Shown: one piece after another, positions 15,446 to 59,058 of the stretch
Layout of the letters: each line of letters begins with the position of its first letter
Numbering within the stretch: position 1 is the stretch's first letter
Origin: a virus
Length of the DNA: 64,000 nt
Reading direction: 5' to 3' (one strand)
IMG/VR virus record: IMGVR_UViG_3300033064_008235
Span: 1-64,000 of that record
Position numbers and translations under genes: made by a program
Notes under the pieces: model-generated
Seen by the model: the letters and a program-made list of their open reading frames with translations, nothing else
What the model was told of the DNA's origin: nothing
Databases searched by the model: none

Positions 15446-17275
15446 TTAGAGTTTACATGCGATGCAATCATCTTGATCGTCAAAGTCAATAGGTTCCAAC
15501 ATTGTTGGAGCTTCTTCTGCCACTGCTTTACTACCTGCTTTGTTGATCAAACTGTAGTAAAAAGTTTTTAGTCCCCACGCATGAGATTGCATTAGATTTT
15601 TAGCAATCAATGTAGTAGGAACTTTACGATCTGGAAAATGTGCAGGATTATAAAAAGTATTGGTACTGATCGATTGATCAACATACGCCGCAATCACTGC
15701 GGCTGTTTTCAAATACCCGTCGCAATCTTTCTGTTCCCACATCAGTTGATACTTGTTCTTTAGTTTATGATATTCAGGAACAACTTGTACAAATGATCCT
15801 GCTTTGCTTTCTTTCACGCTGATCAAACTCATTGGCATTTCAATACCATTAGTTGAGTTAATAGCAACGGAACTTGATTCCACAGGGGCCACAGCACCAT
15901 TGGTAGCATTACGCACACCATAAGTGATCATGTCTTTGCGCATGGGTTCCCAGTCTAGTTCAGGAGAGAAGTCAGTTAGTTCATTCACCCCCTCGGCTCG
16001 TAGTTCCCAAGGAAATACTCCTTGCCCATAACGTGTGTGATCTGAACTCAAACACTTGCCGCGTTCTTTAGCTAACTCTACTGACATTTCTGTAAGATAG
16101 AATGTTTGATGTTCCATCCAGGTTTTGAGTTCAGCTAATGAATCTTTTTCACCATACTTGAGATTGCGTTTTGCATGCCAATAAGCAAGATTAGTAATAC
16201 CAATGCCCAGTGGACGAATCTCATCATTGCTTAGTTTGCTTTGAATTGACAAGAAGTCTTGGTAATCTAAAATGTTGTTGAGACTGCGATGCAATATACG
16301 GCAAGCACGGCGCATGTCTTCTGGGTGTCTGAACGCACCCCAATTTATACTCCCGAGGGTACAAAGCGAGATTCGGCCCTGGTCATCATCGAGTCGTTTA
16401 AAGCTCTTGGTAGGCAAAAGTATTTCTTGACAGAGGTTACTCTGATAGATAGGATCAACCTTTGTATCAAACGGACCTTGTCGCTGAACATTGTCAATGT
16501 ATGTTAGATATATTCTGCCAGTATCAGTTCTTTCTTTTAATATTCCACCTTTGAATACTTCTTCAGCACTCATTGTTTTCTTCCGAATATCAGTGCGTTT
16601 TTCGTATTTTACATATAGAGCCTCAAACAAATCAATGTCTCTATAAAATGCCTCATACAGATCGGGGACTTCATTAGGGTCAAAGAATGTAATATTACCC
16701 TGATCTTTGAACCTGCGCCAAAAGAATGCTGATAATACTACATTATAGTCCATATGCCTAACTCGAGTCTCCTCAGTGCCTTGATTATTCTTTAATACAA
16801 TCAAATCATCAAACTGATAATGCCAAATTGGATATGTGATTGTGGCACTGGCATTACGAATTCCGCCCTGGCTATTATGTGTTAAAACCATTGGCCCATC
16901 ATTGCTAGAAGAAGCAAAAAAGGTATGAGTATCTTGTACTGTGATATCGATATATTCCACCTTGTTACTCTGCCCCACAGCCGAGACAAGTAACCGAGTA
17001 AATCCCAGTTCTGTCAGAACACGATGGTCACTGGTTAGTTCTTTGGGGTTTTTTTGTAAGAATTTGCCGGTTTCACCCAGTACCATTATAGGATGATTTA
17101 TTGAACAGTTTAGCACCACTCCATTTTCAAACTCTAATCGAACCTGGTCCTCAACATCAACCCTGGTGTTGAACTTGTCAGTAACTGTTTTAAAAACAAT
17201 TTCTCCCAGTTTGTTCATGGTTTTTATTTCCATACCTATCACTAGGTCTTTTATTTGTATTTTTTTAGTTTTCAT
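15446..17275 (-). CDS. nrdA: NrdA C-terminal fragment with split-intein C half
   Basis: 609 residues from the ATG at 17275, which overlaps the stop of the homing endonuclease by 11 bases. Residues 1-134 are an intein C-half: VGxEIK-like start, block-B-like NCSINHPIMV, then EYIDITVQDTHTFFA and the terminal VLTHN. Residue 135 is Ser (+1), starting the C-extein SQGGIRNASATITYP, the usual NrdA sequence. The last residues, CIACKL, are the redox pair reduced by glutaredoxin. The N-terminal fragment is at 18859-19815. After splicing the enzyme would be about 773 residues (T4 NrdA 754). Confidence 0.92.
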   Translation of the reverse strand: MKTKKIQIKDLVIGMEIKTMNKLGEIVFKTVTDKFNTRVDVEDQVRLEFENGVVLNCSINHPIMVLGETGKFLQKNPKELTSDHRVLTELGFTRLLVSAVGQSNKVEYIDITVQDTHTFFASSSNDGPMVLTHNSQGGIRNASATITYPIWHYQFDDLIVLKNNQGTEETRVRHMDYNVVLSAFFWRRFKDQGNITFFDPNEVPDLYEAFYRDIDLFEALYVKYEKRTDIRKKTMSAEEVFKGGILKERTDTGRIYLTYIDNVQRQGPFDTKVDPIYQSNLCQEILLPTKSFKRLDDDQGRISLCTLGSINWGAFRHPEDMRRACRILHRSLNNILDYQDFLSIQSKLSNDEIRPLGIGITNLAYWHAKRNLKYGEKDSLAELKTWMEHQTFYLTEMSVELAKERGKCLSSDHTRYGQGVFPWELRAEGVNELTDFSPELDWEPMRKDMITYGVRNATNGAVAPVESSSVAINSTNGIEMPMSLISVKESKAGSFVQVVPEYHKLKNKYQLMWEQKDCDGYLKTAAVIAAYVDQSISTNTFYNPAHFPDRKVPTTLIAKNLMQSHAWGLKTFYYSLINKAGSKAVAEEAPTMLEPIDFDDQDDCIACKL

Positions 17276-18921
17276 TGTTTGTTCTCCACACATACACATT
17301 GTTGCCGCAGTCCCAGAATTTATAGAAGTTGTTGTCTTCCATATTTTGCCATTCGGACTTGTTGGGGTCATACAATGCTAGTTTATTTTTAAGTTTGTGC
17401 TTTTGAAAGGCCGACCTGTGTTCGAGCCCTTTGTTTGTTATATACCAGTAGTTTGGTAATGTGGTATGAGAAAATGTCAATCCAATTTTTTCGTACATTG
17501 CACCGGTATTCCACCTCAAGTCTGCATAGCTAATAATACTGACAGGTAAATTTTGGGTTATGAAATGTTTAAGTAATTTACTAGCACCACCCACTACCGT
17601 ATTTTTTGATGCATATCGTACCAGTTCCCACTGATACTGTTTATTAAATCTAGCCTTAGAAAATGACATAACTGCTTGTATCTCTTGTTTCCATATCAAT
17701 GCATATCTAATACTAGCTGCTGCATATCCTTGTATATGATGTGTTGAAACAAATAGCTTATATGTGGAATTGTCAATTTCAATAAGTTTACACTTCCGGC
17801 CGTGTACTCGGCTGCTTTTTCCTAATTTATTATATAATCTTTCTCGAACAATATCAAACTTATTATGTATTTCGTCATCTGTGATATGTAATAGCTGAAT
17901 AGATTTGCTTTTTGCAACAATCATTTTTTGTTGGTGGTACAAAGGATCTTTAATAAACTGAGTAGAATGCCAATAAATGCCATCAATTTCAATTCCAAGA
18001 TTATGAGAAGCAATAAAAATATCTATTTCTTTTCCGTTAAGAATTTGTCTATTATTAATTTCATATTCTATATTCATACTGTCTAATAGCTCGCATACCT
18101 TTTGTTGTGTGCTAGACACAGTGAATTTGGTACGAATGATATTGTATTTGTCGAAGTAGTGGAGCACTGTACTCCACGCAATTCCTAATTTTGCAGCTAA
18201 CACCACGCTGGATACATCTTTATTTGCTTCTAACCATAATATGTCGTTTAATAACGTATAAACAACAGAATCCCGTCTGGCAGCGTTTGCCTTTTGCCTA
18301 TTCTGTTCTAACACAAGTGTGGATTTGACGCCATAACGAATTATATTAGTTTCAGCAGTTTTAAGTTTGATTCCTTCGTTTTGCATGGGATTAGCGTATC
18401 CATACTTTTTTAGATTAGTGTTATTTCTTTTTTCTACCGCGGTGTCTGAGTGGCTGAAGCTTGCGACTCCGTGTGTGTCCGCCCACAATTCCTTTAGCCC
18501 TGTTATATAATTTTCCGACTGTCTAGCCCAATCTACTCCGTATTTTTTCCTACATGTGCTTTTCTTTTTCTCAGTTATCTCCAATGATCCGTATCCGCCG
18601 TAGTTTGCCAGTACAGTTTGTTGTCTTTTTTCTATTACTTCTTTATTTCCCGAAGCACATGCTTTAGAACAAAAATTAGAATATCCTTTGGCAAATGAAA
18701 TTAACTTGGTTATTGTGTTACAAGATTTGCACGTGGAAGGACCAGTGAGACCGTGAAACAATTGATATGCAGTCTCCCCACTTATATTAACTTTCTCTAA
18801 AGCACGTGGATTTAACCTGCCGGATTTGGTCAGTAAGTTATCAATCACAAACTGCCGGTCAATTTGTGTCATCTGACTCATCCTCGTCTAATACTTCTAC
18901 CCAAGTTTCAGGAGTTACGCA
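16874..18921 (-). other. Split intein in NrdA (atypical split, HEG between)
   Basis: N-half 18921-18862: 20 residues, CVTPETWVEVL plus an acidic tail. C-half 17275-16874: 134 residues ending HN. It joins ...LRSC to SQGGIR. The split is very near the N-terminus. Confidence 0.88.
17265..18881 (-). CDS. Hef-like homing endonuclease inside nrdA
   Basis: 538 residues. An N-terminal Cys-rich element (FCSKACASGN) and repeated helical units (LKKYGYANPMQ, NIIRYGVKSTL) suggest DNA binding. The central Vsr-like nuclease core is EIDIFIASHNLGIEIDGIYWHS. The C-terminal part has SYADLRWNTGAMYEKIG, PNYWYITNKG and FWDCGNNVYVW, seen in free-standing phage Hef-type homing endonucleases. It would cut intein-free nrdA alleles and so spread the locus. 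It overlaps the NrdA N fragment by 23 bases and the C fragment by 11 bases, an arrangement suiting one operon. Confidence 0.85.
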   Translation of the reverse strand: MSQMTQIDRQFVIDNLLTKSGRLNPRALEKVNISGETAYQLFHGLTGPSTCKSCNTITKLISFAKGYSNFCSKACASGNKEVIEKRQQTVLANYGGYGSLEITEKKKSTCRKKYGVDWARQSENYITGLKELWADTHGVASFSHSDTAVEKRNNTNLKKYGYANPMQNEGIKLKTAETNIIRYGVKSTLVLEQNRQKANAARRDSVVYTLLNDILWLEANKDVSSVVLAAKLGIAWSTVLHYFDKYNIIRTKFTVSSTQQKVCELLDSMNIEYEINNRQILNGKEIDIFIASHNLGIEIDGIYWHSTQFIKDPLYHQQKMIVAKSKSIQLLHITDDEIHNKFDIVRERLYNKLGKSSRVHGRKCKLIEIDNSTYKLFVSTHHIQGYAAASIRYALIWKQEIQAVMSFSKARFNKQYQWELVRYASKNTVVGGASKLLKHFITQNLPVSIISYADLRWNTGAMYEKIGLTFSHTTLPNYWYITNKGLEHRSAFQKHKLKNKLALYDPNKSEWQNMEDNNFYKFWDCGNNVYVWRTNNEN

Positions 18922-19815
18922 GCAACTACGCAGGTCGCCAAACCATTTCTTTAAAAATGGTATCATGCCGGTGTGCATGATCTCACCACCACGGATGGGT
19001 GAGCCCAGTGACCGTAGTCGTCCAATCTCCAAACCAATGCCAGCACGTTTGCTGGCATACTTGGCCATCATTTCTCCTGAAGCAAATATGCTATCCAGGT
19101 TATCATCGCTGCGTATAAGCACACAGCTTGAAAATTGCTTTGTAGGAGTACCCAGTCCAGCAAGTACAGGAGTAGCAAGAGTAAAGAGACCGTCCGAAGC
19201 GGCATTGTAGTATTCTTTGATGAATCGCATTCTGGCTGAGTTCGGTTCTTCTGAGTGAAATACAGTAGCGGCCGCGACCATGTATCTAACTTGTGGAGTT
19301 TCATAAGTTTCCTTTGTGGCACGATTTTTCACCAGATATTTTTCAATCAATTGCTCAATAGCAGCATAGCCGTATTGTTCGTCCTTGGAATGATCTATCA
19401 TGTCTTGCATACGGTTCCAATCGGCTTCATCGTACCATTCCAACAGTTCAGGAGTGTACAAGCCTGTGGCCACGTTTTTCTTTACAATTTCGTACAGGTG
19501 GGGAGGCTCATAAGAGCCATATACATCTTTTCTCAACATGCTGAGACGTTGCTTGCCTGCCACATATTGATAGTTGGTGTGCCCAACATCAGGATTGTGT
19601 TCTATATCAATCAGGTCCACAATGGCTCTGAGTGTGATGCCATCAATTTCTTTGGTAGTAATGCCATCGTAAAAGTGCATCTGTGCTTTGATTTCCACCA
19701 TGCTTTGACTCACGTCAGCAATACCTGCACATACTTTGGCAATTTGGGTTTGCCACTTCTCTAGGCTTAATTGTTCTTTTCTTCCGTTACGTTTGATAAC
19801 TGTGATTTGTGTCAT
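18859..19815 (-). CDS. nrdA: NrdA N-terminal fragment with split-intein N half
   Basis: 318 residues. The ATP-cone allosteric domain is at the start (ITVIKRNGRKEQLSLEKW). The reductase core begins with FSSCVLIRSDDNLDSI, IGLEIGRLRSLGSPIRGG and ends FGDLRSC at residue 298. The next 20 residues, beginning CVTPETWVEVL, are the intein N-half. The catalytic core is finished only by the fragment at 15446-17275, so alone this ORF cannot be active. No promoter is obvious; it follows the 140-aa gene by 4 bases. Confidence 0.92.
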   Translation of the reverse strand: MTQITVIKRNGRKEQLSLEKWQTQIAKVCAGIADVSQSMVEIKAQMHFYDGITTKEIDGITLRAIVDLIDIEHNPDVGHTNYQYVAGKQRLSMLRKDVYGSYEPPHLYEIVKKNVATGLYTPELLEWYDEADWNRMQDMIDHSKDEQYGYAAIEQLIEKYLVKNRATKETYETPQVRYMVAAATVFHSEEPNSARMRFIKEYYNAASDGLFTLATPVLAGLGTPTKQFSSCVLIRSDDNLDSIFASGEMMAKYASKRAGIGLEIGRLRSLGSPIRGGEIMHTGMIPFLKKWFGDLRSCCVTPETWVEVLDEDESDDTN

Positions 19816-29940: not shown

Positions 29941-30489
29941 TTAAGTTGTTTTAATCTTGCCCAATAATTGTTTGAGCTTGGAACTTTGCACATCTGCTGA
30001 GATCTTTGAATCCAATGGCTCATTACCATCCTTGGGTTTTGATCGATCCCATCCGCCTGTGGAGCCAGTGGTTTCTGTCGAAGTAACCGATGCTTTTGCC
30101 TTGATGGAATCCATCAAGCTGGGTTTGCGGAATGAGTTTTCGCCATCATCACCTCCAGCATCTGTAATACGCATGGTATCAATGTTGTATTCAAGATCAA
30201 TCTTTTGCCCCACGCCTGTTGAACTACGCGACTTCATACATTGAATTTGATACTTGCCACGCTCTTTCATTTGTCTGCTGGTGAAAATACCAAACACATT
30301 GTCTGCTGTGTTGATCTTGCTGATACCACCTGAAATATGACTGTGATCAAACTCTACTTCTTCCACGGCAGAATTATGAGTCAGAATGTCATTGGCATAA
30401 AACAATCTATTACCAGACACATTTATGTCTATTGTTTCTTCTTCTCCGATATATTCGATTGATTCGATCTCGTCCCAAATATTATTCAT
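29941..30489 (-). CDS. gp41 helicase C-terminal fragment with split-intein C half
   Basis: 182 residues from the ATG at 30489, which overlaps the homing endonuclease stop by 8 bases. Residues 1-39 are the intein C-half: WDEIESIEYIGEEETIDINV and SGNRLFYANDILTHN. The C-extein begins SAVEEVEFDHSHISGGISK, typical for gp41/DnaB helicase, then MKERGKYQIQCMKSRSS with the arginine-finger region. The intein half looks like the published gp41-8 split intein, from memory. With the N fragment it gives a helicase of about 478 residues (T4 gp41 475). Confidence 0.93.
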   Translation of the reverse strand: MNNIWDEIESIEYIGEEETIDINVSGNRLFYANDILTHNSAVEEVEFDHSHISGGISKINTADNVFGIFTSRQMKERGKYQIQCMKSRSSTGVGQKIDLEYNIDTMRITDAGGDDGENSFRKPSLMDSIKAKASVTSTETTGSTGGWDRSKPKDGNEPLDSKISADVQSSKLKQLLGKIKTT

Positions 30490-32198
30490 CAGCGTTCCGT
30501 AATATAAAATGTTTATGCCCGCAATCAAAAATTTTGATTGCCCCAATCTCGCGCATCAGTACCTCTTCGGTCTTGTTACTATCGAATCCCATGGCAACTA
30601 ATTTTTTCTTAGTCCAGGACAACCGATGGTACATCCTACCATTCACGTAGTACCAATATCCCGGGGAAGTAACATGAGTTTCAGTAAACTTATTGTTATT
30701 GTACACTGCCCCAGTACCGTAACGCAAGTCTGCATACGTCACAATGTCATGATTTTTGTACTTCTTACTGATTTCTTTGACAAATTTGCCCAATGCTCCG
30801 GGAACACTGGCTGGGCCAAACGATAAACGAACAATTTCGACCACGTGGGCACTGTTAGAAAATCTATTTTTCTTCATGCAAGAGAGTACAGCACATAACT
30901 GATCGTGATGAAATAGTCCGAAATGCGCGGACGCTTTGCTGTATCCGTGAATGTGAGTTTGTTCCAGGAAGTGTTTTGCAACCGATGACTCAATTTCTCT
31001 AACAGTGCATTTCCTGGCAAAAATAGTTTGGGTCGTTAGTTTTAACCTGTGTTTGATCATTGCGCACACTAATTCTTTGTGGTTTGTCCACTCATCGTCA
31101 GTTATCATCAATAACGTAATTCCTGCACTGTTGCACATTTTGAATTTTTCATAATGATAGTTGCTTGATAATCGGTCATTACTGTGCCAGTAAATTCCAT
31201 TGATTTCTATTGCAAATTTCTCAATGGGAAAATAAATATCAATTTCTTTAGGCGGAATAATTTTCCTGCTATTCTCAATTATTTCCCCGCTATAGAATTT
31301 TCTTACTTCAGCAATCACATCTTTTTCAATTGAGCTTTGTCCACCAGGGGCGGTTGGTGGAAAACACACGGTGCATTTTGGTAGCCTGCCGAACAAACTA
31401 GAGCTAAATGAATTGTGACACCCGGTACATTCCCACTCTAATTCTTTATCTCTAACATGTGTGTAGTCATCAAAATCAAATTTTGGAATTGCAAACTCAG
31501 AAACCTTAGAGATGATGTAGGTGTAAAATGTCAGCTGCTTTTGCCTTGATCGCTGGGACATTTTTTCAATGATTTGTCCCGGGTTTGCTACTCCGTATTT
31601 TGCAATACATGTTGATTGAAATTTTTGTTTAAATTCATTGGTTGAGGAGTAATGTTTGACGCCGTATTTGATAATATTAGCAGTCTCTTTTTTAGCTGTG
31701 ACCTGGGCACTATTTGCAGTGCAACGGGTGCTGCAAAATTTTGCATACGCCCTGCCAAAATCCAGGTACTTGGTGGGTTTTTGGCAGTGATTGCACTGGC
31801 CGCCGAGGGCATTGTGACTCCATTTCCACGCCTTTTCAGAAAACGATTTACCATCGATCTTGGATATTAATTCAAATAGCTCAGGCTTCCTGGCCCGTAG
31901 TATGATCGATGCCACTCGTGGAAGATTCTTCCACAGCTCTAATATATAATCTTTCTCCAGCTGATAATCCATTTGCTATTGTCCTTAATCCAGTTTGAGT
32001 GGGAAATTTATGTTGTGCGCTGCAATCGATAAATTTACCAGATTTGAGTTTGATTCGATAAACTGGTTGCGTGGTGGTTGGCAATATTTCATACACAGTA
32101 ACTTGTCCGTTGTTTGAATCTAATTTATCACCAGTTTTGACGTATCGAATTTCAATTTCTTTCCCGTTGGCTATTACTTTAGTGTCAAGTGCAAGGCA
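30373..32198 (-). other. gp41-8-like split intein (usual split site, HEG between)
   Basis: N-half 32198-31884 (105 residues, starts CLALDTKV, contains CSAQHKFPTQTG). C-half 30489-30373 (39 residues, ends LTHN). It joins SQLNR to SAVEE, the site known for gp41-8. Confidence 0.92.
30482..31972 (-). CDS. Hef-like homing endonuclease inside gp41
   Basis: 496 residues, related in layout to the nrdA endonuclease. N-terminal zinc element FCSTRC, a second Cys pair WECTGCHNSF/CTVC, Vsr-like core EIDIYFPIEKFAIEINGIYWHS, TLLMITDDEW, then TYADLRYGTGAVYNNNKF, PGYWYYVNG and a final IFDCGHKHF. It overlaps the gp41 N fragment by 92 bases, wholly within the intein N-half and its tail, so the start of the endonuclease is hidden in intein coding sequence. 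It should spread the fractured locus by cutting unbroken gp41 genes. Confidence 0.87.
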   Translation of the reverse strand: MDYQLEKDYILELWKNLPRVASIILRARKPELFELISKIDGKSFSEKAWKWSHNALGGQCNHCQKPTKYLDFGRAYAKFCSTRCTANSAQVTAKKETANIIKYGVKHYSSTNEFKQKFQSTCIAKYGVANPGQIIEKMSQRSRQKQLTFYTYIISKVSEFAIPKFDFDDYTHVRDKELEWECTGCHNSFSSSLFGRLPKCTVCFPPTAPGGQSSIEKDVIAEVRKFYSGEIIENSRKIIPPKEIDIYFPIEKFAIEINGIYWHSNDRLSSNYHYEKFKMCNSAGITLLMITDDEWTNHKELVCAMIKHRLKLTTQTIFARKCTVREIESSVAKHFLEQTHIHGYSKASAHFGLFHHDQLCAVLSCMKKNRFSNSAHVVEIVRLSFGPASVPGALGKFVKEISKKYKNHDIVTYADLRYGTGAVYNNNKFTETHVTSPGYWYYVNGRMYHRLSWTKKKLVAMGFDSNKTEEVLMREIGAIKIFDCGHKHFILRNADE

Positions 32199-33203
32199 CC
32201 TATTCAACTGACTTGCAGTTACCATCAAGATGCCCAGCTCTTTGGCCAGGTTGCGCAGCTCCTCGCTAACATATTTATCTTTCACAAACAAGTCATTAGG
32301 ACTTACCTTTGCACTCACTGGCATCAACAAGTCCAAATAGTCAATCATCACAAAGTCCACACGCTTGCCTGTTTGTATTTGATATTCTTTCAAATAAGCT
32401 CTAATGTCATTGATGTTGCTTTGTGCAGGCAATCCTTTCACTTGATAGTTACCAGATTTCTTACCTACCAGTTTGACTTTGAGCTCAGTGGTACCAATAT
32501 CCTTGCGAATATCCTTGGTACTCATATTAGTAAGCATAGCATCGGTTCTCAGACTTGTGAGTTCTTCGCTCAACTCCAGTGTGATGTATACTCCGCTCAG
32601 TCCGGCTTGAACCCAATTCAATGCTATGTTCATCATCACAAGACTCTTGCCCGAGCCCGAGCCGCCTGCAAAGATGTTTAGTTCACCTCGACTGAATCCA
32701 CCATACAACAGTCGATCCATCTGCGACCATCCTGTGCTAACTTGTCCGCCAGAGTTGAAATATTTCTCAATTCTGCCTTTGGGATCAGCAAAGTAATCAG
32801 TGCCCATGTCCTTGGTCAAACTGATCTGTACAGCATCTTTGATCAGTTTCTCTACTGGATCATAATCGCCCTTTTCCAACAAGTCTGCTGCTTTGAGAAT
32901 TGCACGTTCCAGCTCTTGACGTCGAGTGAATGCTTCAAATTCTGCCATGAACCATTCAAAATGGCCTTCATTGAGTTCAGGCACTGGCTGTAGTTTCACT
33001 CCTGTTGTGGCTGATATCTGTGCCCTGTCAGGTAATGTTTTGTATTTGTCTCCGTGTTCTTTGAGAAACTCAGCAACTGGTCTCAAACTTCGATCAAAGT
33101 TCTCTGCATTAAAAATGTTCTGCACACGCACATAGCCTTGTGCGTCCTCTAGCATCATTTCCAAAAATAACTTTTGTACTTCAATAGAATAATCTTTAAG
33201 CAT
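31881..33203 (-). CDS. gp41 (DnaB-type) helicase N-terminal fragment with split-intein N half
   Basis: 440 residues from ATG 33203. Helical N-domain, then RecA-like core with Walker A GGSGSGKS at 180-187, Walker B-type VDFMVMIDYLDLLMP-like segment and SQLNR at the end of the extein (residue 335). The last 105 residues are the intein N-half. gp41 is the hexameric replicative helicase that unwinds ahead of the polymerase with primase gp61, whose gene ends 5 bases upstream. Function needs the fragment at 29941-30489. Confidence 0.94.
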   Translation of the reverse strand: MLKDYSIEVQKLFLEMMLEDAQGYVRVQNIFNAENFDRSLRPVAEFLKEHGDKYKTLPDRAQISATTGVKLQPVPELNEGHFEWFMAEFEAFTRRQELERAILKAADLLEKGDYDPVEKLIKDAVQISLTKDMGTDYFADPKGRIEKYFNSGGQVSTGWSQMDRLLYGGFSRGELNIFAGGSGSGKSLVMMNIALNWVQAGLSGVYITLELSEELTSLRTDAMLTNMSTKDIRKDIGTTELKVKLVGKKSGNYQVKGLPAQSNINDIRAYLKEYQIQTGKRVDFVMIDYLDLLMPVSAKVSPNDLFVKDKYVSEELRNLAKELGILMVTASQLNRCLALDTKVIANGKEIEIRYVKTGDKLDSNNGQVTVYEILPTTTQPVYRIKLKSGKFIDCSAQHKFPTQTGLRTIANGLSAGERLYIRAVEESSTSGIDHTTGQEA

Positions 33204-33208
33204 GATTA

Positions 33209-34195
33209 TCAAGAATTCCGTATTCTTTTAACAAGATTTTTTTTCCTCATTTCAATTTTGATCCGACTGGTTTCACGATTTTCAAATATAGTTAGCAGTG
33301 TTGCCAACCTACCATAACGAACCACGCTGTCATTTACATCCTTGATATCCGCAGGCCAAGGTGGCATACTCACTGCCCATCCTAATTCTACAGCACGATC
33401 CACAAGTTCCATACCTGCCAAATCCTGATCGGGTACCACAGTAATCTCTCGACCAAGACTGCGAATTAGTCTAGCTTGTTCATCTGATATAGTGTTATGC
33501 ATCACTGCCAGACCGCCAATGCTGAGTGCATCAAATATGCCCTCTACCACAATTGTGTTGGTCCAATCCGCATGTTGCAAATCTGCGCCAAACACATATC
33601 CCTGTTGGCTGTCAGTGATGTATTTGGGTGTTTTATTGTCCAAAAATCTGCGAGTATATCCCACAATACGATTATCATGGGTAAATGGTATGATTACATT
33701 GGGTCGTGTGAGAAATGCACGTTCTCTATGTAATTCTATTATTAATGGATAATCATCTGGTACCTGTCTGTTTCTTACATAGGTTCTAAATGGTTCTTGA
33801 TTGACCAACAATTCTCCAAACTCTGGTAGCTCGCGTTCTTCAAAACTGATACCTGCCAATGTAGAATACAGGCGCTGCCGGTCATCAACAATACCGTATA
33901 TGCCTCGATGTCTTAGACTTTCTAAGTTTAGCATATCAATTTCAGTAACAGGCACACCCAACCAACTCAGCAGCCTACGGGCCTTGTAACTTAGTGTTCG
34001 GCCAAGGATAAAGCTAGCGGTATAATTGCAGTTGAAGCAATGATAACCCCAACCTTTTTCTGTTGGCTTAAGACCGCCACGATTACGATGATCTTTTGTA
34101 CTGCCATTATGTTGACAACATACTGCATTGAAACTAGTCCAGCCCGACGGCGTGGTCTTTCTTTTGGCTGGCAAATACTCAAGGACGTCTAGCAT
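33209..34195 (-). CDS. DnaG-type primase (T4 gp61)
   Basis: 328 residues (T4 gp61 342). N-terminal zinc-binding region C26/C27-x-H29 and H52-C53-x2-C56. Toprim motifs: VVEGIFDAL with E218 and D222, and VVPDQDLAGM with D256/D258. It makes RNA primers on the lagging strand with gp41. A good sigma70 promoter ends only 7 bases before the ATG, so the message may be leaderless. Directly followed by gp41 N, so primosome subunits are co-transcribed. Confidence 0.94.
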   Translation of the reverse strand: MLDVLEYLPAKRKTTPSGWTSFNAVCCQHNGSTKDHRNRGGLKPTEKGWGYHCFNCNYTASFILGRTLSYKARRLLSWLGVPVTEIDMLNLESLRHRGIYGIVDDRQRLYSTLAGISFEERELPEFGELLVNQEPFRTYVRNRQVPDDYPLIIELHRERAFLTRPNVIIPFTHDNRIVGYTRRFLDNKTPKYITDSQQGYVFGADLQHADWTNTIVVEGIFDALSIGGLAVMHNTISDEQARLIRSLGREITVVPDQDLAGMELVDRAVELGWAVSMPPWPADIKDVNDSVVRYGRLATLLTIFENRETSRIKIEMRKKNLVKRIRNS

Positions 34196-39867: not shown

Positions 39868-40710
39868 TCATTGCCAGTTTAATTTTTCTTGAGTATAAGG
39901 ATATTCAGCATCATTATAGTAGGCCTTGCGCTTGGCCAAATGTCTTTTGCTGAATCTGCATGTTGATGTGATATCCCAGATCTGCACATGATCTTTGTCT
40001 TCGGCTTTTCTAATACCACGCCCAATTGATTGGATTACCCTGGTGAAACTTTTACCGGACTCGATCATGACCAAGTTAAAGATTCTTGGTATATTGATAC
40101 CCACAGCAGCCACACCATATGTGGCCACAATGATTTTGCCAGTGGCTGTGGCCACTTGGTCGTATTCTTCCTGCCGTGCAGCACCTTTGGTTGCTCCTGA
40201 CACAAACACTGCTCGATCACCCAGTCTTGCAACCAATTCACGTCCGGGTGCCACACGATCTACCAGCACTAGGGTATTACCAGTTTCATTCACTTGCAAT
40301 ACCAACTGAGCAATGGCGTCCAAACGTCCTGATTCTTCCAGTAGATATTTTAATTCTTGCTGGTAAGTTTTATGCTCTACTGTGTCAACCATTTGCACCA
40401 CATTCACATGACACTGTGCCAATACACCCCGTTCTTGCAGTTCACTGGCAGCTAATTTCGAAATCACTGGGCCAAGACTTACTAGCAATGACTGGCTTTC
40501 AAACGCTTCTTTGGGAATGGTGCCAGTCAACCCCCAACGAATTGGCACTTGCGCCATCACACCTGTCAGCAGAGTTTTGAGTGCATCTGCTTTGGCCATG
40601 TGACAATTTGATACTACTGCACCATCTACAATGTAGTTGTGATCGTTTTGTATGTGCAAATTAAACACTGCAGAGGGTTTTGGTATTTCAATTCTCTTTA
40701 TTAATTTCAT
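39868..40710 (-). CDS. uvsW: UvsW helicase, third fragment, with split-intein C half
   Basis: 280 residues. Residues 1-35 are an intein C-half (LIKRIEIPKPSAVFNLHIQN, DHNYIVDGAVVSN); Cys36 is +1. The extein starts CHMAKADALKTLLTG, finishing the DECH box of superfamily 2 helicase motif II, then GLTGTIPKEAFES (motif III), VLVDRVAPG (IV), KIIVATYGVAAVGINIPR (V) and QSIGRGIRK (VI). UvsW remodels recombination intermediates and R-loops. It needs splicing to the middle fragment; both lie 9 bases apart with no endonuclease between. Confidence 0.92.
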   Translation of the reverse strand: MKLIKRIEIPKPSAVFNLHIQNDHNYIVDGAVVSNCHMAKADALKTLLTGVMAQVPIRWGLTGTIPKEAFESQSLLVSLGPVISKLAASELQERGVLAQCHVNVVQMVDTVEHKTYQQELKYLLEESGRLDAIAQLVLQVNETGNTLVLVDRVAPGRELVARLGDRAVFVSGATKGAARQEEYDQVATATGKIIVATYGVAAVGINIPRIFNLVMIESGKSFTRVIQSIGRGIRKAEDKDHVQIWDITSTCRFSKRHLAKRKAYYNDAEYPYTQEKLNWQ

Positions 40711-41058
40711 ATAATTTCTTTATCTTTCTTGCTGTGCAGATACCAAATCTGCTGTAGTTGATATTAATTTTTTATTAATAATGTCATGTTCATGAGTCAA
40801 CTCATCTGCTCGTATCCATCCTTGATCAGTGAGAAACTTATGATTACCGGTGACTTGTATTTTGTTACCATTATCAAATTCTAACTCAAACATAGTTTCG
40901 CTAGCAGAATTTGTTAGGTTCTTATGCTGTTTAACTACCGTATCTACTTTAAACTCTTTAGTAGTCTCGGAATAGTTAATAATCTTATCACCTGAGGTTA
41001 TATCTTTAATCGCAACATATCCAGTAGGAGTTAACACCCTGCTATCTGCCGAAAAACA
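40606..41058 (-). other. Second UvsW split intein (usual split site, no HEG)
   Basis: N-half 41058-40723: 112 residues starting CFSADSRVLTPTGYVAIKDI. C-half 40710-40606: 35 residues ending VVSN. It joins VIVDE to CHMAKA, inside helicase motif II. Confidence 0.9.
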
Positions 41059-41742
41059 TTCATCCACAATAACACAAACAACATCTTCGATAAACTCTTG
41101 TATGGTGAAATCACCCGTGCCATCCTTGGTGTTCTTCATGAGATTGTTTAGACTTTGCCATGTGCATATGGTATGACTACGACCATATTCTTTTCGGTCT
41201 CCAAAATACACACCCACATCCAACTCCATGTTGATGTAGTCTTTTTCTGTTTGTGTCACAAGACTTTTGTTAGGCACAATCACAATACTACGGCCATACT
41301 TGCTCACTGCATCGCTTAGTGCTGCTGTCATAATGGTATTATGATGTATTAGTCCGTTAGCATCATAATATAAATGCGGAGCATCGATTGAAATATCAAA
41401 ACAATTTTCGTTGGCTGTGTTAAGTATTTTAGTAATCGTTATGCTGCCGGTCAAATGATCTACTGTTGATCCAATGGTCAATTGTTTGGCAAAAATATCA
41501 TTGCCGTGCTGTTGTAGAATATGATTCTTTGCTACACGTATTACATATCCGTTATCAAATTCCAACTCAACCATTGGCAAATCAAACTTCTTTATGAAAG
41601 AGTTCACTTTTACATTTTTATCTAACGCCGAGACATAAATTCCAAAATTATCTACTGATATTTCTTGGTTATCTATTAAGGTTGTAGCATTGAATTCCTC
41701 GATATATTCACAAAGTTTTCCAATTGGTATTTTAATTATCAT
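40720..41742 (-). CDS. uvsW: UvsW helicase, middle fragment flanked by two intein halves
   Basis: 340 residues in three parts. 1-135: intein C-half of the first split (MIIKIPIGKLCEYIEEFNAT, NHILQQHG, then APHLYYDANGLIHHN), +1 residue Thr136. 136-228: UvsW core between motifs I and II (TIMTAALSDA, SIVIVPNKSLVTQTEKD, TICTWQSL, VCVIVDE). 229-340: intein N-half of the second split. A protein with intein halves on both ends must be ligated twice to make UvsW. It overlaps the endonuclease stop by 4 bases. Confidence 0.93.
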   Translation of the reverse strand: MIIKIPIGKLCEYIEEFNATTLIDNQEISVDNFGIYVSALDKNVKVNSFIKKFDLPMVELEFDNGYVIRVAKNHILQQHGNDIFAKQLTIGSTVDHLTGSITITKILNTANENCFDISIDAPHLYYDANGLIHHNTIMTAALSDAVSKYGRSIVIVPNKSLVTQTEKDYINMELDVGVYFGDRKEYGRSHTICTWQSLNNLMKNTKDGTGDFTIQEFIEDVVCVIVDECFSADSRVLTPTGYVAIKDITSGDKIINYSETTKEFKVDTVVKQHKNLTNSASETMFELEFDNGNKIQVTGNHKFLTDQGWIRADELTHEHDIINKKLISTTADLVSAQQER

Positions 41743-42840
41743 TTAATAAAGTCCCGGCACTTTTGTAATATTTCTACTGGACTGGATATATAATCATTTT
41801 CCCATACGATCATTACGGTATAATCGTTATCTTCTAAATCCCGAACTTTCTTTGAATCATGTAGCCAAACATCATTTACTTTCTTTTTTCGTATCATTTC
41901 ATTACCTGTATATATTTTAGGATTCCCGTGCCAGTAGTCACCGTAGTATTCTATAATTTTTTTACCATATAAAAAATCTACACGATGAACCTTTTGTTTT
42001 CCGCGGACTGTTTTTTCATCAGGACCATAATAACCTATTTCAAGTTGTTTGAATAATTCTATAGACTTTTTGCTACGGTTTGCTACCATTCTTTTATTAC
42101 CTGGCGAATCAAGCCACTGTCTAATACGGGCATTGAACATCTCTTTACCGTTGCTACCATACTTAGATGTATAAAAATCTAACCCATTTGTGACTTGCAC
42201 TTTACTAACCTTCAGAGTAGCTTCTTCGTGCGTGAGCCCTTTTTTGATCCAATATTCGACGGTCCTAATAGAATATCCACGTGCGCCTTTTTTTGCAGCT
42301 GGTGATTTTAACGATCTATCTTTTTGAACTTCTTTAGTCTTACTAAGGGCAGCCACTGCTGAATATCCCTTGCTAACCCAATATTCAATTGTATTTTGTA
42401 GGCCTTGTCTTTTGGCCAAGTTTACTGAATTTATAATGTCATTGGCGGTGGAAATAGAATAGAAGCAAGTTAATTTTTGTAAGGTCATTTGGTTTGTGCC
42501 ATCGTGGCCGCATTGACAATTTTTCTTTGCAATATAATTACCTTTGTATATGCCAAGATCAAATTGAGTATAACAATGATGGCACAATTTGGTAGAAATT
42601 GGCGGCGCTTTTCCAATGAACAATTTACTCGAAAACACCGGTTTCTTTGATATAGCAATAATATCCCATTTGTCAATTTTGTGTAAGGTGCATAATCGTG
42701 GCCAGCTTTTTTCTTTAAAATTATCCATTATTTGATGTAACATCATTATCCTGCTCCTGTTGTAATTTATTTATTATAAATCTACCAAAAGAAGTATTTT
42801 CATCAATATTAACACATAATAGGGTGTTACTTGCTAGACA
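41338..42840 (-). other. First UvsW split intein (N-terminal split, HEG between)
   Basis: N-half 42840-42724: 39 residues starting CLASNTLLCV. C-half 41742-41338: 135 residues ending LIHHN with Thr at +1. It joins EVATGAGK to TIMTAAL, restoring the P-loop GAGKT. Confidence 0.88.
41739..42746 (-). CDS. EDxHD/Vsr-like homing endonuclease inside uvsW
   Basis: 335 residues. N-terminal zinc-type Cys pairs (CHHCYTQF, CQCGHDG), then repeats of the form YW-x-KG-x-EEA-x-KV (TIEYWVSKGYSAVAAL, TVEYWIKKGLTHEEA) with SPAAKKGARGYSIRT, and a Vsr-like nuclease at the end: VDFLYGKKIIEYYGDYWHG, NPKIY and TVMIVWENDY. It strongly resembles the endonuclease in the uvsX break (57686-58759). It overlaps the UvsW N fragment by 26 bases and the middle one by 4. 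Confidence 0.88.
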   Translation of the reverse strand: MMLHQIMDNFKEKSWPRLCTLHKIDKWDIIAISKKPVFSSKLFIGKAPPISTKLCHHCYTQFDLGIYKGNYIAKKNCQCGHDGTNQMTLQKLTCFYSISTANDIINSVNLAKRQGLQNTIEYWVSKGYSAVAALSKTKEVQKDRSLKSPAAKKGARGYSIRTVEYWIKKGLTHEEATLKVSKVQVTNGLDFYTSKYGSNGKEMFNARIRQWLDSPGNKRMVANRSKKSIELFKQLEIGYYGPDEKTVRGKQKVHRVDFLYGKKIIEYYGDYWHGNPKIYTGNEMIRKKKVNDVWLHDSKKVRDLEDNDYTVMIVWENDYISSPVEILQKCRDFIK

Positions 42841-43284
42841 TTTGCCTGCACCAGTGGCCACTTCCTGCAGGCACTGCGGGTTGGCTAGAAAATTATTGAT
42901 GATTTCCACTTGATAGTCACGTAGCTCAATGGGTTTGCCTGCCATTGGGTGATTGTGTGGCCAGGCTTTGTGGGCATAGGTCTGTTCGTGTACCTGATCA
43001 AACTCAAATGTGGTTGTGTAGGTACGTTGATCATCAAGCTCAACATCATAATTGTGTTTGTCTAGGATGGGCAAAATCTCAGGCAACAAGTTTACATAAG
43101 TGCTGCCGCCAAGTTGGAAGTAGGCCACTTTACCATCCCAGCGTCCTAGTCTCACTGCTGGCAGATAACGTGCGTAAGGTACATCATATTTGAATTTCTT
43201 TACTAGATCTCTGCGAGTGTCAAGATCTAGGCCTTCAATCTTAATGTTGACTTCGTCACGTATTATTATGGTTGCTTTTTTCAT
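42721..43284 (-). CDS. uvsW: UvsW helicase, first fragment, with split-intein N half
   Basis: 187 residues from ATG 43284. The N-terminal UvsW domain (ATIIIRDEVNIKIEGLD, ARYLPAVRLGRWDGKVAYF) and LRDYQVEIINNFL lead to EVATGAGK, residue 148, the first part of the P-loop. The remaining 39 residues are the intein N-half. The P-loop Thr is supplied by the next fragment. Assembled UvsW would be 148 + 93 + 245 = 486 residues (T4 503). Two terminators lie upstream, so it begins a separate transcript. Confidence 0.92.
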   Translation of the reverse strand: MKKATIIIRDEVNIKIEGLDLDTRRDLVKKFKYDVPYARYLPAVRLGRWDGKVAYFQLGGSTYVNLLPEILPILDKHNYDVELDDQRTYTTTFEFDQVHEQTYAHKAWPHNHPMAGKPIELRDYQVEIINNFLANPQCLQEVATGAGKCLASNTLLCVNIDENTSFGRFIINKLQQEQDNDVTSNNG

Positions 43285-56195: not shown

Positions 56196-56464
56196 TAATT
56201 TTCCCAGTCGTCAGCGTGATAATCTTCTTCTTCATCAGCTTCTTCATCTTCGTCTTCAAAGCTCTTGTCATTGTCAAGATATGCTGTGAGAGCACGTTTG
56301 ATGTCTGGATCACCTTTGAATGCATTTCGAATGTCATCCACATCACAATCATTGTCAATCAAAATTGCAACTATAGTTTCGGTTGCCTCATTACGATCAA
56401 CGGTGTTTACATATCTCTTGAGTTCAGACCAGAGTTCGCTGGCCACTGCTACTGCTTCATTCAT
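56195..56464 (-). CDS. Small acidic protein between uvsX and uvsY
   Basis: 89 residues. Helical (VASELWSELKRYVNTVDRNE, TIVAILIDNDCDVDDIRNAF) with a very acidic C-terminal tail (EDEDEEADEEEDYHAD). It overlaps uvsX by 4 bases and uvsY by one base, so it is part of the same operon. The acidic tail could bind DNA-binding partners or mimic DNA. Unknown function; T4-like cyanophages have a gene here, from memory. Confidence 0.7.
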   Translation of the reverse strand: MNEAVAVASELWSELKRYVNTVDRNEATETIVAILIDNDCDVDDIRNAFKGDPDIKRALTAYLDNDKSFEDEDEEADEEEDYHADDWEN

Positions 56465-57696
56465 TCTGCTGTCTCCTCCTGGGTACTTACCTCTTCCCTG
56501 TGATTTCCAAAATCCGCCATTGCACGGTCCAAGCAGCCTTCCTCATTGGCTTCCCACTTCTTGCGAAACTTCTTGATAATCTCACCGTCAGTAGTAACAA
56601 ACACTAAACTATTGCCTTCTTTCTTCAGCATGTTGCGCTTCTCCATGAGATCCACCATACCCGAGTATGGACTCATACCTGTTTCATACGGAATCTTTAC
56701 CTGCACACCTTCAAAAGGTTTGGCATAGCGTGTTTTCATTACTTTGCAAGCAGCACGGATGCCCATAACATCTGAGATCTTGTTGCCGTCTTCATCTTCT
56801 TTCAGCTTGAGTTTCTTCATGGCCACAACAATTGAGCTGGCATAGATAAAGCCTTGACCACCGGATATCTTATCATCCGGATCAAACATGTCCTGACTTG
56901 CATAAGTGTGATTGGTACAAACCAATCCCACATTGTATGAACCAAACATATTCACACAGTTACGTACCAAACTAGTAAGTGCTTTGGGTTTGCGGCCCAT
57001 GTCACCTTTCATCTCGCCTGCTTCGAACTGATTCACATCAGTTGGTGTAAGCAACATTCCCAATGAATCAATAACAAACATGACCTTAGGACGATCAGTA
57101 TCGGGCAATGCCTTGTAATCAATCATGAATGTGGAGATGGCTTTGGCCACATCATCAATCATGGACATGCTTAGTTTAAGCAATTTTGAATCGCTGGTAT
57201 CCACGCCCAGTGCTTTGAGCCAATCCTCATCTAGTGCGTTTTCACTATCCACTAGCACTACATAGATGCCCTGTGCTTGTGCGTTCTTGATAATGTTGCC
57301 GGAGCAGATATAACTTTTTCCGCTATTGTGGCTTGAGATACCATCTCCCCAATATCTATGATTAGGATGATCTACCGTGAAGTCATAACACTCTTCAGGA
57401 GTAACTTCAATAACCGAAACTATTGGATCAGACTTATTAGATTTAGTGATCAACAATGTACCCACATCAACATTACCTGCCGGAACCCAATTGTTGTTAG
57501 ATAACTGCAATAAATGATTGTTAGCACATCGAGTAATTAGTCCACCTAGTGTGATTACTTCAACCATTGGCAACACCCCTTTGTTAAACCAAGCCGTAAT
57601 AGGCTCAAATCCGTCGGGTGTATCAATTTCTAAATTATATTCCCCACATTCCCATAACTTTTTTAGTTCGCCAACGGTAACTTCTTTAAATGCCAT
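56461..57696 (-). CDS. uvsX: UvsX recombinase C-terminal fragment with split-intein C half
   Basis: 411 residues. Residues 1-124: intein C-half (EVTVGELKKLWECGEYNLEI, CANNHLLQL, ECYDFTVDHPNHRYWGDG and terminal SSHN), +1 Ser. Residues 125-411: UvsX core from SGKSYICSGNIIKNAQAQG, Walker B-type VMFVIDSLGMLL, L2-type FDPDDKISGGQGF and the C-terminal DNA-binding end. It completes the P-loop GESGSGKS with the N fragment. Spliced UvsX would be 351 residues (T4 391). It overlaps the endonuclease stop by 11 bases. Confidence 0.93.
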   Translation of the reverse strand: MAFKEVTVGELKKLWECGEYNLEIDTPDGFEPITAWFNKGVLPMVEVITLGGLITRCANNHLLQLSNNNWVPAGNVDVGTLLITKSNKSDPIVSVIEVTPEECYDFTVDHPNHRYWGDGISSHNSGKSYICSGNIIKNAQAQGIYVVLVDSENALDEDWLKALGVDTSDSKLLKLSMSMIDDVAKAISTFMIDYKALPDTDRPKVMFVIDSLGMLLTPTDVNQFEAGEMKGDMGRKPKALTSLVRNCVNMFGSYNVGLVCTNHTYASQDMFDPDDKISGGQGFIYASSIVVAMKKLKLKEDEDGNKISDVMGIRAACKVMKTRYAKPFEGVQVKIPYETGMSPYSGMVDLMEKRNMLKKEGNSLVFVTTDGEIIKKFRKKWEANEEGCLDRAMADFGNHREEVSTQEETAE

Positions 57697-58759
57697 TTTT
57701 AATCTCCTTAATAATTTTTTCTGCTACGCAATGAGGGTTAGTCATAACTTCACTTTCCCATACTATGATAACATTATTGACTTCTTTATGCGCGGCAATT
57801 TTTGCCATTCTTTCATTATCTGTATTCCATATTTCATCCGATGATCTATTGTATGCCACAAAATCCGCATTATATTTTTTAGGATTCCTATGCCAAAAGT
57901 CTCCATAATATTCAATCACTGTTTTTGATATACTATCATAGAAATCAACGCACCAAGTTCCAATCTGCTTCTCATAGTTTTTTGTTTTATAATACGTTCC
58001 TTCATGTCCCAACATTTCATCTAATATCATAAAGAATACCTGAGACGTCTTGGAGAAACTATTTCTCTTTGCATAATATCGATTTGATAATTTAGTTGCA
58101 TCTGCTAATTCATAACCACGTAAAACAAAAGCATCAATGCTATGTCCTTTTTTCTGATTTATTAATATCTTCTCTTCTTCAGACTTGGCAGCTAATGTAG
58201 CTAGCCATTGTGCTATTACCACGGGAGACCTAGCATGAGATTGTGATTCAGATACTTTAATTTTGGCCTCTTCCTCCGAATATCCCCGCATTACCCAATA
58301 CCCAATGCATCTAATAGAATAATCAGTTGCTCCTTTTTGTGCTGCTGGAGATTTTGCTGACCTCTTGGATTGAATCTCTGTAACTTTTTTTTGTGCGTTT
58401 TCTACAGTGTATCCTTTATCTTGCCAGTAAATTACTCTATTCTGAAAATGATTAGTTTTCTTTTTGGATGCTTCCACATAATGCTTTCTCCAGTGATCTC
58501 CATATCTTAATACAAATGAATATTTTGAAGGGCTCGACGGCATTGCCTTTAATCGTCTGAGTCGACCCAAATAGTTACTTAAATCATATTTTATCATATA
58601 TGCCAATGCAGGTAACCAATTCTCACATTTTTTTGGTGATCCATAAGTATCAAATACTAATAATAAACGTTCACATTGCTTATTCGTCAAGGACGCCCCG
58701 TTACCTATAATTGCGCCAACTGCTTTTCTTTTTAGAAATCTATCTATATTTTTAGTCAT
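57686..58759 (-). CDS. EDxHD/Vsr-like homing endonuclease inside uvsX
   Basis: 357 residues from ATG 58759 (AGGA 8 bases upstream). Helical DNA-binding repeats VIYWQDKGYTVENAQKKVTE, SPAAQKGATDYSIRCIGYW and GYSEEEAKIKVSESQSHARS, then a Vsr-like nuclease with VDFYDSISKTVIEYYGDFWH, NPKKY and NVIIVWESE. Clearly a paralog of the uvsW endonuclease. A TATAAATA late promoter lies just upstream, in the gap after the UvsX N fragment, so it can be expressed separately. Confidence 0.9.
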   Translation of the reverse strand: MTKNIDRFLKRKAVGAIIGNGASLTNKQCERLLLVFDTYGSPKKCENWLPALAYMIKYDLSNYLGRLRRLKAMPSSPSKYSFVLRYGDHWRKHYVEASKKKTNHFQNRVIYWQDKGYTVENAQKKVTEIQSKRSAKSPAAQKGATDYSIRCIGYWVMRGYSEEEAKIKVSESQSHARSPVVIAQWLATLAAKSEEEKILINQKKGHSIDAFVLRGYELADATKLSNRYYAKRNSFSKTSQVFFMILDEMLGHEGTYYKTKNYEKQIGTWCVDFYDSISKTVIEYYGDFWHRNPKKYNADFVAYNRSSDEIWNTDNERMAKIAAHKEVNNVIIVWESEVMTNPHCVAEKIIKEIKNGI

Positions 58760-58780
58760 GCACAATTCCTAAGTTATGAG

Positions 58781-58788
58781 TATTTATA
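58781..58788 (-). promoter_or_regulatory. Late promoter of the uvsX endonuclease
   Basis: Exact TATAAATA on the minus strand, 21 bases before the endonuclease start. Confidence 0.6.
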
Positions 58789-58815: not shown

Positions 58816-59058
58816 TTATGTCTTTTTAGATATTCTAATTGTTACTTTGGCCGATTCGGGCAAGCACCCCGACTCGCCTGCAAAAACAGTAACCTTACCC
58901 AATGGAATACCTCTATTGAAGTCTCCAGAGATCAAATAGTTCAATGCAAAGTTGCCAGTAGACACCCAGTCGGTTGGGTCGTTGAAACCAATGCTCAATC
59001 CTTCAATTGACTTGGTAATTTCTTTTCTAAACTTACTAACATCGAAGGGCTTAGACAT
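58816..59058 (-). CDS. uvsX: UvsX recombinase N-terminal fragment with split-intein N half
   Basis: 80 residues: 64 of UvsX (SIEGLSIGFNDPTDWVSTGN, ALNYLISGDFNRGIPLGKVT, ending FAGESG) and 16 of intein N-half (CLPESAKVTIRISKKT). It holds the first half of the P-loop, so activity depends on splicing with 56461-57696. A ribosome site TTAAAGGA precedes the ATG. UvsX catalyses strand exchange in phage recombination-dependent replication. Confidence 0.92.
   Translation of the reverse strand: MSKPFDVSKFRKEITKSIEGLSIGFNDPTDWVSTGNFALNYLISGDFNRGIPLGKVTVFAGESGCLPESAKVTIRISKKT

Follow-up and report, generated by a model that had tools for sequence, protein, structure and literature searches.

Organization of the UvsW Locus

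We analyzed a stretch of 64,000 nucleotides (nt), hereafter the window, which comprises positions 1 to 64,000 of the IMG/VR virus record IMGVR_UViG_3300033064_008235 (65,690 bases), a fragment of a T4-like phage. From 43284 to 39868 on its minus strand, the helicase UvsW is encoded in three separate open reading frames (ORFs) that carry the halves of two different split inteins at their breaks. With E1 to E3 for the exteins and IN and IC for the N- and C-halves of inteins 1 and 2, the pieces are E1-IN1 (42721-43284), which reads ...QEVATGAGK/CLASNTLL...NNG before its stop, IC1-E2-IN2 (40720-41742), which reads MIIKIP...GLIHHN/TIMTAALS...CVIVDE/CFSADSRV...QQER before its stop, and IC2-E3 (39868-40710), which reads MKLIKR...GAVVSN/CHMAKAD... 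(slashes mark splice junctions; all features located here and below are on the minus strand). A preliminary description of this DNA had proposed that the middle ORF starts with the C-half of one intein and ends with the N-half of another, and this reading was borne out. The junctions it had placed at GAGK/T and DE/CH proved exact when compared with uninterrupted homologues, so that the Walker A and DECH motifs are the ones interrupted. Joined in silico, E1-E2-E3 gave a normal UvsW that aligned with uninterrupted relatives. Pfam searches detected ResIII and Intein_splicing (2.2e-12) in piece 2 and Helicase_C (6.3e-08) in piece 3; the UvsW_N match was below the cut-off (E 0.0072), and tblastn retrieved thousands of phage helicase/UvsW records. 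Judged by its UvsW N-domain, the superfamily 2 motifs I (GAGKT) and II (DExH), and the helicase C domain, the gene was assigned to the UvsW helicases.

The N-extein E1 (42841-43284; 148 amino acids, aa) aligned end to end with uninterrupted relatives and ends at the Walker A motif (...VATGAGK). At junction 1 (GAGK/C...HHN/T), the Cys of IN1 stands right after the extein, and the final Asn of IC1 is followed by Thr. IN1 (42724-42840) has 39 aa, starts with Cys1, and shares a conserved core of about 28 aa with the homologous IN1 of every other split-intein-1 locus in which this junction is present; counted to the stop, its length was mostly 27-42 aa in split alleles and at least 80 aa in the L146 group. 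IC1 (41338-41742; 135 aa, block B NHIL, end GLIHHN, +1 Thr) was recognized by fold prediction and Foldseek. In the structure predicted for the middle ORF it formed a near-complete Hint domain, with a predicted local distance difference test score (pLDDT) mostly of 70-94, and matched the RadA, VidaL (6vgv), and gp41-1 inteins; its sequence match to VidaL was weak (E 0.013). Catalytic residues were retained in the IC1 of 10 divergent alleles, and block B reads AKNH, in which His is kept and Ala, invariant in the 10 alleles, replaces Thr, as likewise in VidaL UvsX. By these sequence features, intein 1 is a split intein of the atypical N-short class, with halves of 39 and 135 aa. The gap between the first two pieces holds a gene for a predicted free-standing homing endonuclease (homing endonuclease gene 1, HEG1; 41739-42746; 335 aa). 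Its first 26 nt overlap the IN1 tail, and its stop overlaps the start of IC1. HEG1 of the window had no convincing Pfam match itself, and its homologue in the related contig L004 matched MTES_1575 and DUF559 (PD-(D/E)XK, Vsr-like). A frameshift or annotation artefact as the source of break 1 was ruled out by this 1 kb ORF in the gap, which recurs in relatives.

The middle extein E2 (41059-41337; 93 aa, TIMTAALS...CVIVDE) was 90-97% identical in the nearest relatives. At junction 2 (VDE/C...VSN/C), the Cys of IN2 directly follows the extein, and the final Asn of IC2 precedes Cys. Intein 2 is canonically split (112/35 aa): IN2 (40723-41058), to which the Intein_splicing match belongs, has 112 aa, and IC2 (40606-40710; MKLIKR...GAVVSN, +1 Cys), delimited by sequence reading, has 35 aa. 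Both TGNH at block B and DHNY were present. When IN2 and IC2 were read through the TAA codon that separates them, a Hint domain was predicted (mean pLDDT 85.6, predicted template modeling score 0.80), with the disorder confined to residues 100-113, which are the scar described below, and the top Foldseek matches were the DnaB (E 6e-9) and DnaX mini-inteins and one intein-like domain. The residue before the final Asn is Ser, not His; Ser also occupies this position in the active Npu DnaE. The C-extein E3 (39871-40605; 245 aa, CHMAKAD...) contains the helicase C-terminal domain, and its tblastn matches were phage UvsW and DNA helicases.

Distribution of the Two Inteins among Relatives

Searching viral contigs with the middle ORF, followed by later scans, yielded 215 distinct contigs after removal of repeats; they were sampled by sequence query, and the counts given here are not frequencies. 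Both points were uninterrupted in 83 contigs, and because these loci are intact exactly where the window is broken, the arrangement is far beyond chance. Intein 2 occurred alone in 78 contigs and intein 1 alone in 16, so neither intein needs the other. Split intein 1 and intein 2 coexisted in one UvsW in 19 contigs, the window included (the other 18 are L003-L009, L062, L064, L146, L147, L150-L152, L155, L158, L161, and L164), several of which are cut inside UvsW. The preliminary description had regarded such a three-fragment protein as rare and had named a nonconserved middle ORF in related genomes as a refutation. We found instead that IC1-E2-IN2 recurs in all 18 other contigs, usually within the five-ORF array E1-IN1, HEG1, IC1-E2-IN2, HEG2, IC2-E3, which was seen in L003 (a contig that ends just past IC2), L004, L005, L007, and L062. 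The arrangement of three fragments with two split inteins is thus not unique and recurs within one phage group.

Three contigs (L072, L218, and L233) had an unrelated continuous LAGLIDADG intein exactly at site 1 (GAGK/T), together with split intein 2. One T4-like UvsW (L132) was found in a contig filed under a Pacearchaeota metagenome-assembled genome, probably mis-binned phage DNA.

The Second Break Is a Scar of a Deleted Endonuclease Gene

The earlier account of three pieces stood, and it had mentioned neither HEG1 between the first two nor what lies between the last two. In 75 of the 97 contigs with intein 2, a full-length ORF of about 300 residues (HEG2), weakly similar to TnsA-like PD-(D/E)XK nucleases, separates IN2 from IC2. 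The window is without HEG2. Read in the HEG frame, its IN2-IC2 DNA gives INYSRFGICTARKIKKLYE, compared with IDYNRFDDKTAKKIKALYE in L004, and a relic of about the last 18 HEG2 codons (40709-40762; INYSRFGICTARKIKKLY) aligns with HEG2 ends such as IDYNRFDDKTAKKIKALY of L004. In the intein frame the same DNA supplies the unusual tail of IN2, about its last 15 aa, and the in-frame TAA (40720-40722) that ends the middle ORF and is the sole separator of the halves (TAA, 9 nt, ATG of IC2). From this comparison, break 2 of the window is read as the scar of a deleted second endonuclease. We also considered a HEG-less break as the ancestral state and rejected it for the window, since in the HEG frame the linker aligns with the C-terminus of HEG2, and since alleles that lack the HEG are nested among alleles that carry it; the intein 2 tree, which was built from a smaller set, needs five or more changes to the split state without a HEG. 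Other deletions removed HEG2 and left the intein split (L006/L008/L009, L022, L066, L074, L181, L225, and L238), and partial HEG2 remained in L203, L222, and L237.

In five contigs (L190-L194), the deletion of HEG2 left no stop, and therefore intein 2 is continuous. Their scar reads RFDNNTARKIKTLYE in the HEG frame and TTTQQEKLRHC in the intein frame, the linker being the out-of-frame end of HEG2; all five share the same open intein of 417 nt, and the two that were checked (L190 and L191) have a single UvsW ORF of 625 codons. At site 1, L138 and L139 are single ORFs that continue through intein 1 and retain the DNA CAACAGGAGCTGGATAATGATGTTACA; its match in the window, CAACAGGAGCAGGATAATGATGTTACA, is the region with the ribosome-binding site and start of HEG1. 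In L154 and L155, HEG1 has been lost and intein 1 is still split. Both sites of L170 contain continuous inteins that bear no scars of either kind. The window is one base (TAA vs. TTA) short of re-fusion.

This closeness raises the possibility that intein 2 is continuous in the window as well, the TAA being a sequencing or assembly error or being read through, which would make UvsW a two-piece protein here. IN2 and IC2 do share one frame with a single stop between them, and L190-L194 are single ORFs with a scar of this kind in which TTA replaces TAA. However, the TAA derives from ATA (AAG ATA AAG), an Ile codon of the lost endonuclease that is common at this place in intact HEG2 (L004, L014, and L023), and the TTA of L190-L194 comes from ATT. 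Other alleles without HEG2 are clearly split, by several stops (L006/L008/L009 and L074), by a change of frame (L066, L181, and L225), by two in-frame stops (L238), or by TAA-ATG (L022), and in the remaining double-intein alleles the halves are kept apart by several stops or by a complete HEG2. On this balance we regard a continuous intein 2 in the window as unlikely.

Taken together, the alleles probably represent the full life cycle of a split intein at two sites of one gene, in which fracture would be reversible in nature. An empty site would gain a split intein with its free-standing endonuclease, the endonuclease would then decay while the fracture is kept, as in the window, and the halves would finally be re-fused into a continuous intein with a scar. 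Within the limited literature covered, we know of no account of the natural re-fusion of a split intein.

Horizontal Transfer and Purifying Selection

The closest relatives of the window, L028 and L029, share 98% of its extein residues and have neither intein; L028 was 88-93% identical to the window in nucleotides across the neighborhood. In a tree of 108 UvsW exteins, a quick tree with some weak branches, the window stood beside empty alleles, and the minimum number of changes was 7 at site 1 and 12 at site 2. Between the window and L003, synonymous divergence (dS) was about 1.4 in the exteins vs. 0.20 in HEG1 and 0.28 in IC1. Between L023 and L024 it was 2.9 in E2 vs. 0.07-0.22 in IN2, HEG2, and IC2, and the same contrast was found for L004/L010 and L014/L017. 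Because the synonymous divergence of the exteins far exceeds that of the intein and HEG parts, these sequence comparisons show that the inteins move horizontally. The +1 residue at junction 2 was Cys in each of the 96 intein-2 alleles that extend to it, whereas the 103 empty alleles had Val (95), Ala (4), or Cys (4); intein 2 therefore appears to bring its own nucleophile. No clear tract of local co-conversion was seen beside the insertion sites when the window was compared with L028, the synonymous changes being spread over the gene.

The four empty alleles with +1 Cys (L140, L148, L149, and L163) could be natural or could bear the footprint of precise intein loss. In addition, two very divergent UvsW-like helicases (L058 and L059; exteins 25-27% identical) contained the same intein 2 (61-63% identical) and HEG2, which suggests long-range transfer.

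The window is heavily loaded with mobile elements, four of its genes being fractured, and the fragments might be remnants of a gene that these elements destroyed, so that UvsW is no longer made. The nonsynonymous to synonymous rate ratio (dN/dS) of the window exteins against those of L028, an empty allele, was 0.016-0.032, as expected of purifying selection acting on UvsW, and the exteins and intein halves contained no internal stops or frameshifts. Moreover, the splice-junction residues are intact, and the same arrangement occurs with divergent inteins in the 18 other contigs. A broken gene is accordingly very improbable.

Proposed Assembly by Two Trans-Splicing Reactions

Based on these features, UvsW of the window is very probably a doubly fractured protein, the three fragments of which would be joined by trans-splicing through two different split inteins. 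According to this model, a split intein originally accompanied by its own homing endonuclease gene would have entered the codons of each of the two best conserved ATP-site motifs, the two inteins being different. Each fragment would be made on its own: IC1-E2-IN2 would follow HEG1 through the overlapping stop and start codons, and IC2-E3, which starts 9 nt past the TAA, would plausibly be expressed by termination-reinitiation. IN1 with IC1 and IN2 with IC2 would then associate, and E1, E2, and E3 would be linked by two trans-splicing reactions. The product would be an ordinary UvsW, about 486 residues long and with GAGKT and DECH complete again, which we infer to be a functional helicase. HEG2 has already been deleted in the window, its scar keeping the halves apart by one stop codon.

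Splicing might also be dispensable, the three fragments assembling into a working helicase as they stand. There is a precedent in the gene-in-pieces NrdA of phage Aeh1, a functional enzyme although split (reviewed in PMC2988022). Yet both breaks of UvsW lie inside motifs, the P-loop and motif II, and are flanked by complete intein halves with conserved catalytic residues, and a free-standing HEG that inserts without an intein would bring no such halves. We consider assembly without splicing very improbable.

The preliminary description had required that the inteins be orthogonal, with IN2 not reacting with IC1. By sequence, this pairing would be the only one that needs preventing. Block B lies within IC1 for intein 1 and within IN2 for intein 2, so orthogonality would be partly built in by the different split points of the Hint fold (IN1 N-short with 39 aa, IN2 canonical), and these would limit cross-reaction. 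By sequence, IN1 with IC2 would be short of about 70 residues including block B and should be inert; IN2 with IC1 would be over-complete, with block B twice, and would be the only pair at risk. In engineered systems the order IC-extein-IN cyclizes the extein. As IN2 and IC1 stand in this order on one polypeptide, they form the dangerous pair, which would cyclize the middle piece. When the middle ORF was predicted alone, from an alignment of six sequences and with low confidence outside IC1, E2 and IN2 had pLDDT mostly <57 while IC1 folded, so no IC1-IN2 partnership was predicted; we rejected this model as proof of orthogonality and took it as suggestive. The identity between IN1 and the first part of IN2 was also dismissed as evidence, since the forced alignment (9/23 identical, score -1) was uninformative.

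Several observations weigh against assembly by two trans-splicing reactions. The case is built entirely on sequences and predicted structures, and the fold prediction of intein 1 covers IC1 alone. The Ala for Thr in block B of intein 1 and the Ser before the final Asn of intein 2 depart from the usual residues. The Shine-Dalgarno sequence ahead of IC2-E3 is weak, which makes translation of piece 3 uncertain. Break 2 depends on one in-frame TAA in one assembly; a search for a second assembly with the same scar gave no exact match, and no near-identical contig was found. Finally, N-short ICs can take foreign INs, even one that is part of a longer intein (PMC3443213), and cross-talk between IN2 and IC1 is possible for this reason. 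A peptide spanning both junctions had been proposed for detection by mass spectrometry; E2 has 93 aa, so no single ordinary peptide spans both, and trypsin is unsuited to the junction 1 peptide because it cuts at GAGK/T.

Other Fractured Genes in the Window

Three further genes of the window are fractured. UvsX (58816-59058, 57686-58765, and 56461-57696) has an IN of only 16 aa (CLPESAKVTIRISKKT) after AGESG, an HEG between, and an IC of 124 aa that ends in SSHN/SGKS, that is, an extreme N-short split intein of the VidaL type. The T4 late-promoter motif TATAAATA occurs at 58781-58788, a short way upstream of the endonuclease ORF that lies within UvsX; the window has four matches to this motif, no excess over shuffled sequences. 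NrdA (18859-19815, 17265-18881, and 15446-17371) has an IN of about 19-20 aa, a DUF7487 endonuclease ORF between, and an IC of about 166 aa, and the gp41/DnaB helicase (31881-33212, 30482-31972, and 29941-30546) has a canonically split intein at SQLNR/SAVE, with a DUF7487 endonuclease between. With the two of UvsW, five split inteins coexist in the window.

Relation to Known Systems and Implications

Each component of this locus is known in kind, from genes-in-pieces (PMC2988022), N-short split inteins, or fractured genes. Fractured genes, in which a split intein is accompanied by a free-standing endonuclease, were described by Dassa et al. (2009, Nucleic Acids Res 37:2560; cited in PMC7090010), and UvsW, a conserved enzyme that its sequence indicates to be split at an intein with an endonuclease gene in the gap, would belong to them. 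UvsW resembles these genes as a phage enzyme of DNA metabolism with a split intein and a free-standing, putatively Vsr-like endonuclease ORF in the gap, a likeness that holds at break 1 of the window and, in most relatives, at break 2. It differs in its two breaks, three polypeptides, and two splicing reactions, and in that the endonuclease is gone at break 2; the same account may contain a double fracture. Intein 1 is similar to the N-short split inteins AceL-TerL and VidaL UvsX (PDB 6vgv) in its very short IN and long IC with block B, and to VidaL in having Ala for Thr in block B and a clear fold match with a weak sequence match. Unlike these two, it lies in UvsW at GAGK/T and has an IN of about 28-39 aa. 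Intein 2 corresponds to that in UvsW of Salmonella phage S16 and Proteus phage PM2, where homologous IN and IC flank a PD-(D/E)XK ORF at DE/CH; these phages have only this fracture and no intein at site 1, unlike the window, and their genes (gp114/gp114.1/gp115 in S16, L133 2662-5388; L134 2530-5262 in PM2) are annotated as helicase, hypothetical protein, and helicase, with no intein named.

In engineered assembly, fragments are joined in order by mutually nonreacting split inteins (PMC7090010). UvsW would be similar in that several fragments are joined in order by split inteins, and it differs in being natural and in using two different split positions. In the literature searched, the coverage of which was limited, we found no description of a natural protein made from three pieces by two split inteins. 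If splicing is confirmed, UvsW would be a protein in nature that becomes active only after two mutually orthogonal trans-splicing reactions and that lacks both ATP-binding motifs up to that point. Because the middle piece has the order used for making cyclic proteins, orthogonality should be under direct selection. These pairs, which reside together naturally and have different split positions, would be useful for multi-fragment ligation. The relatives form a natural allele series that bears on the origin of split inteins and on whether a fractured gene can heal.

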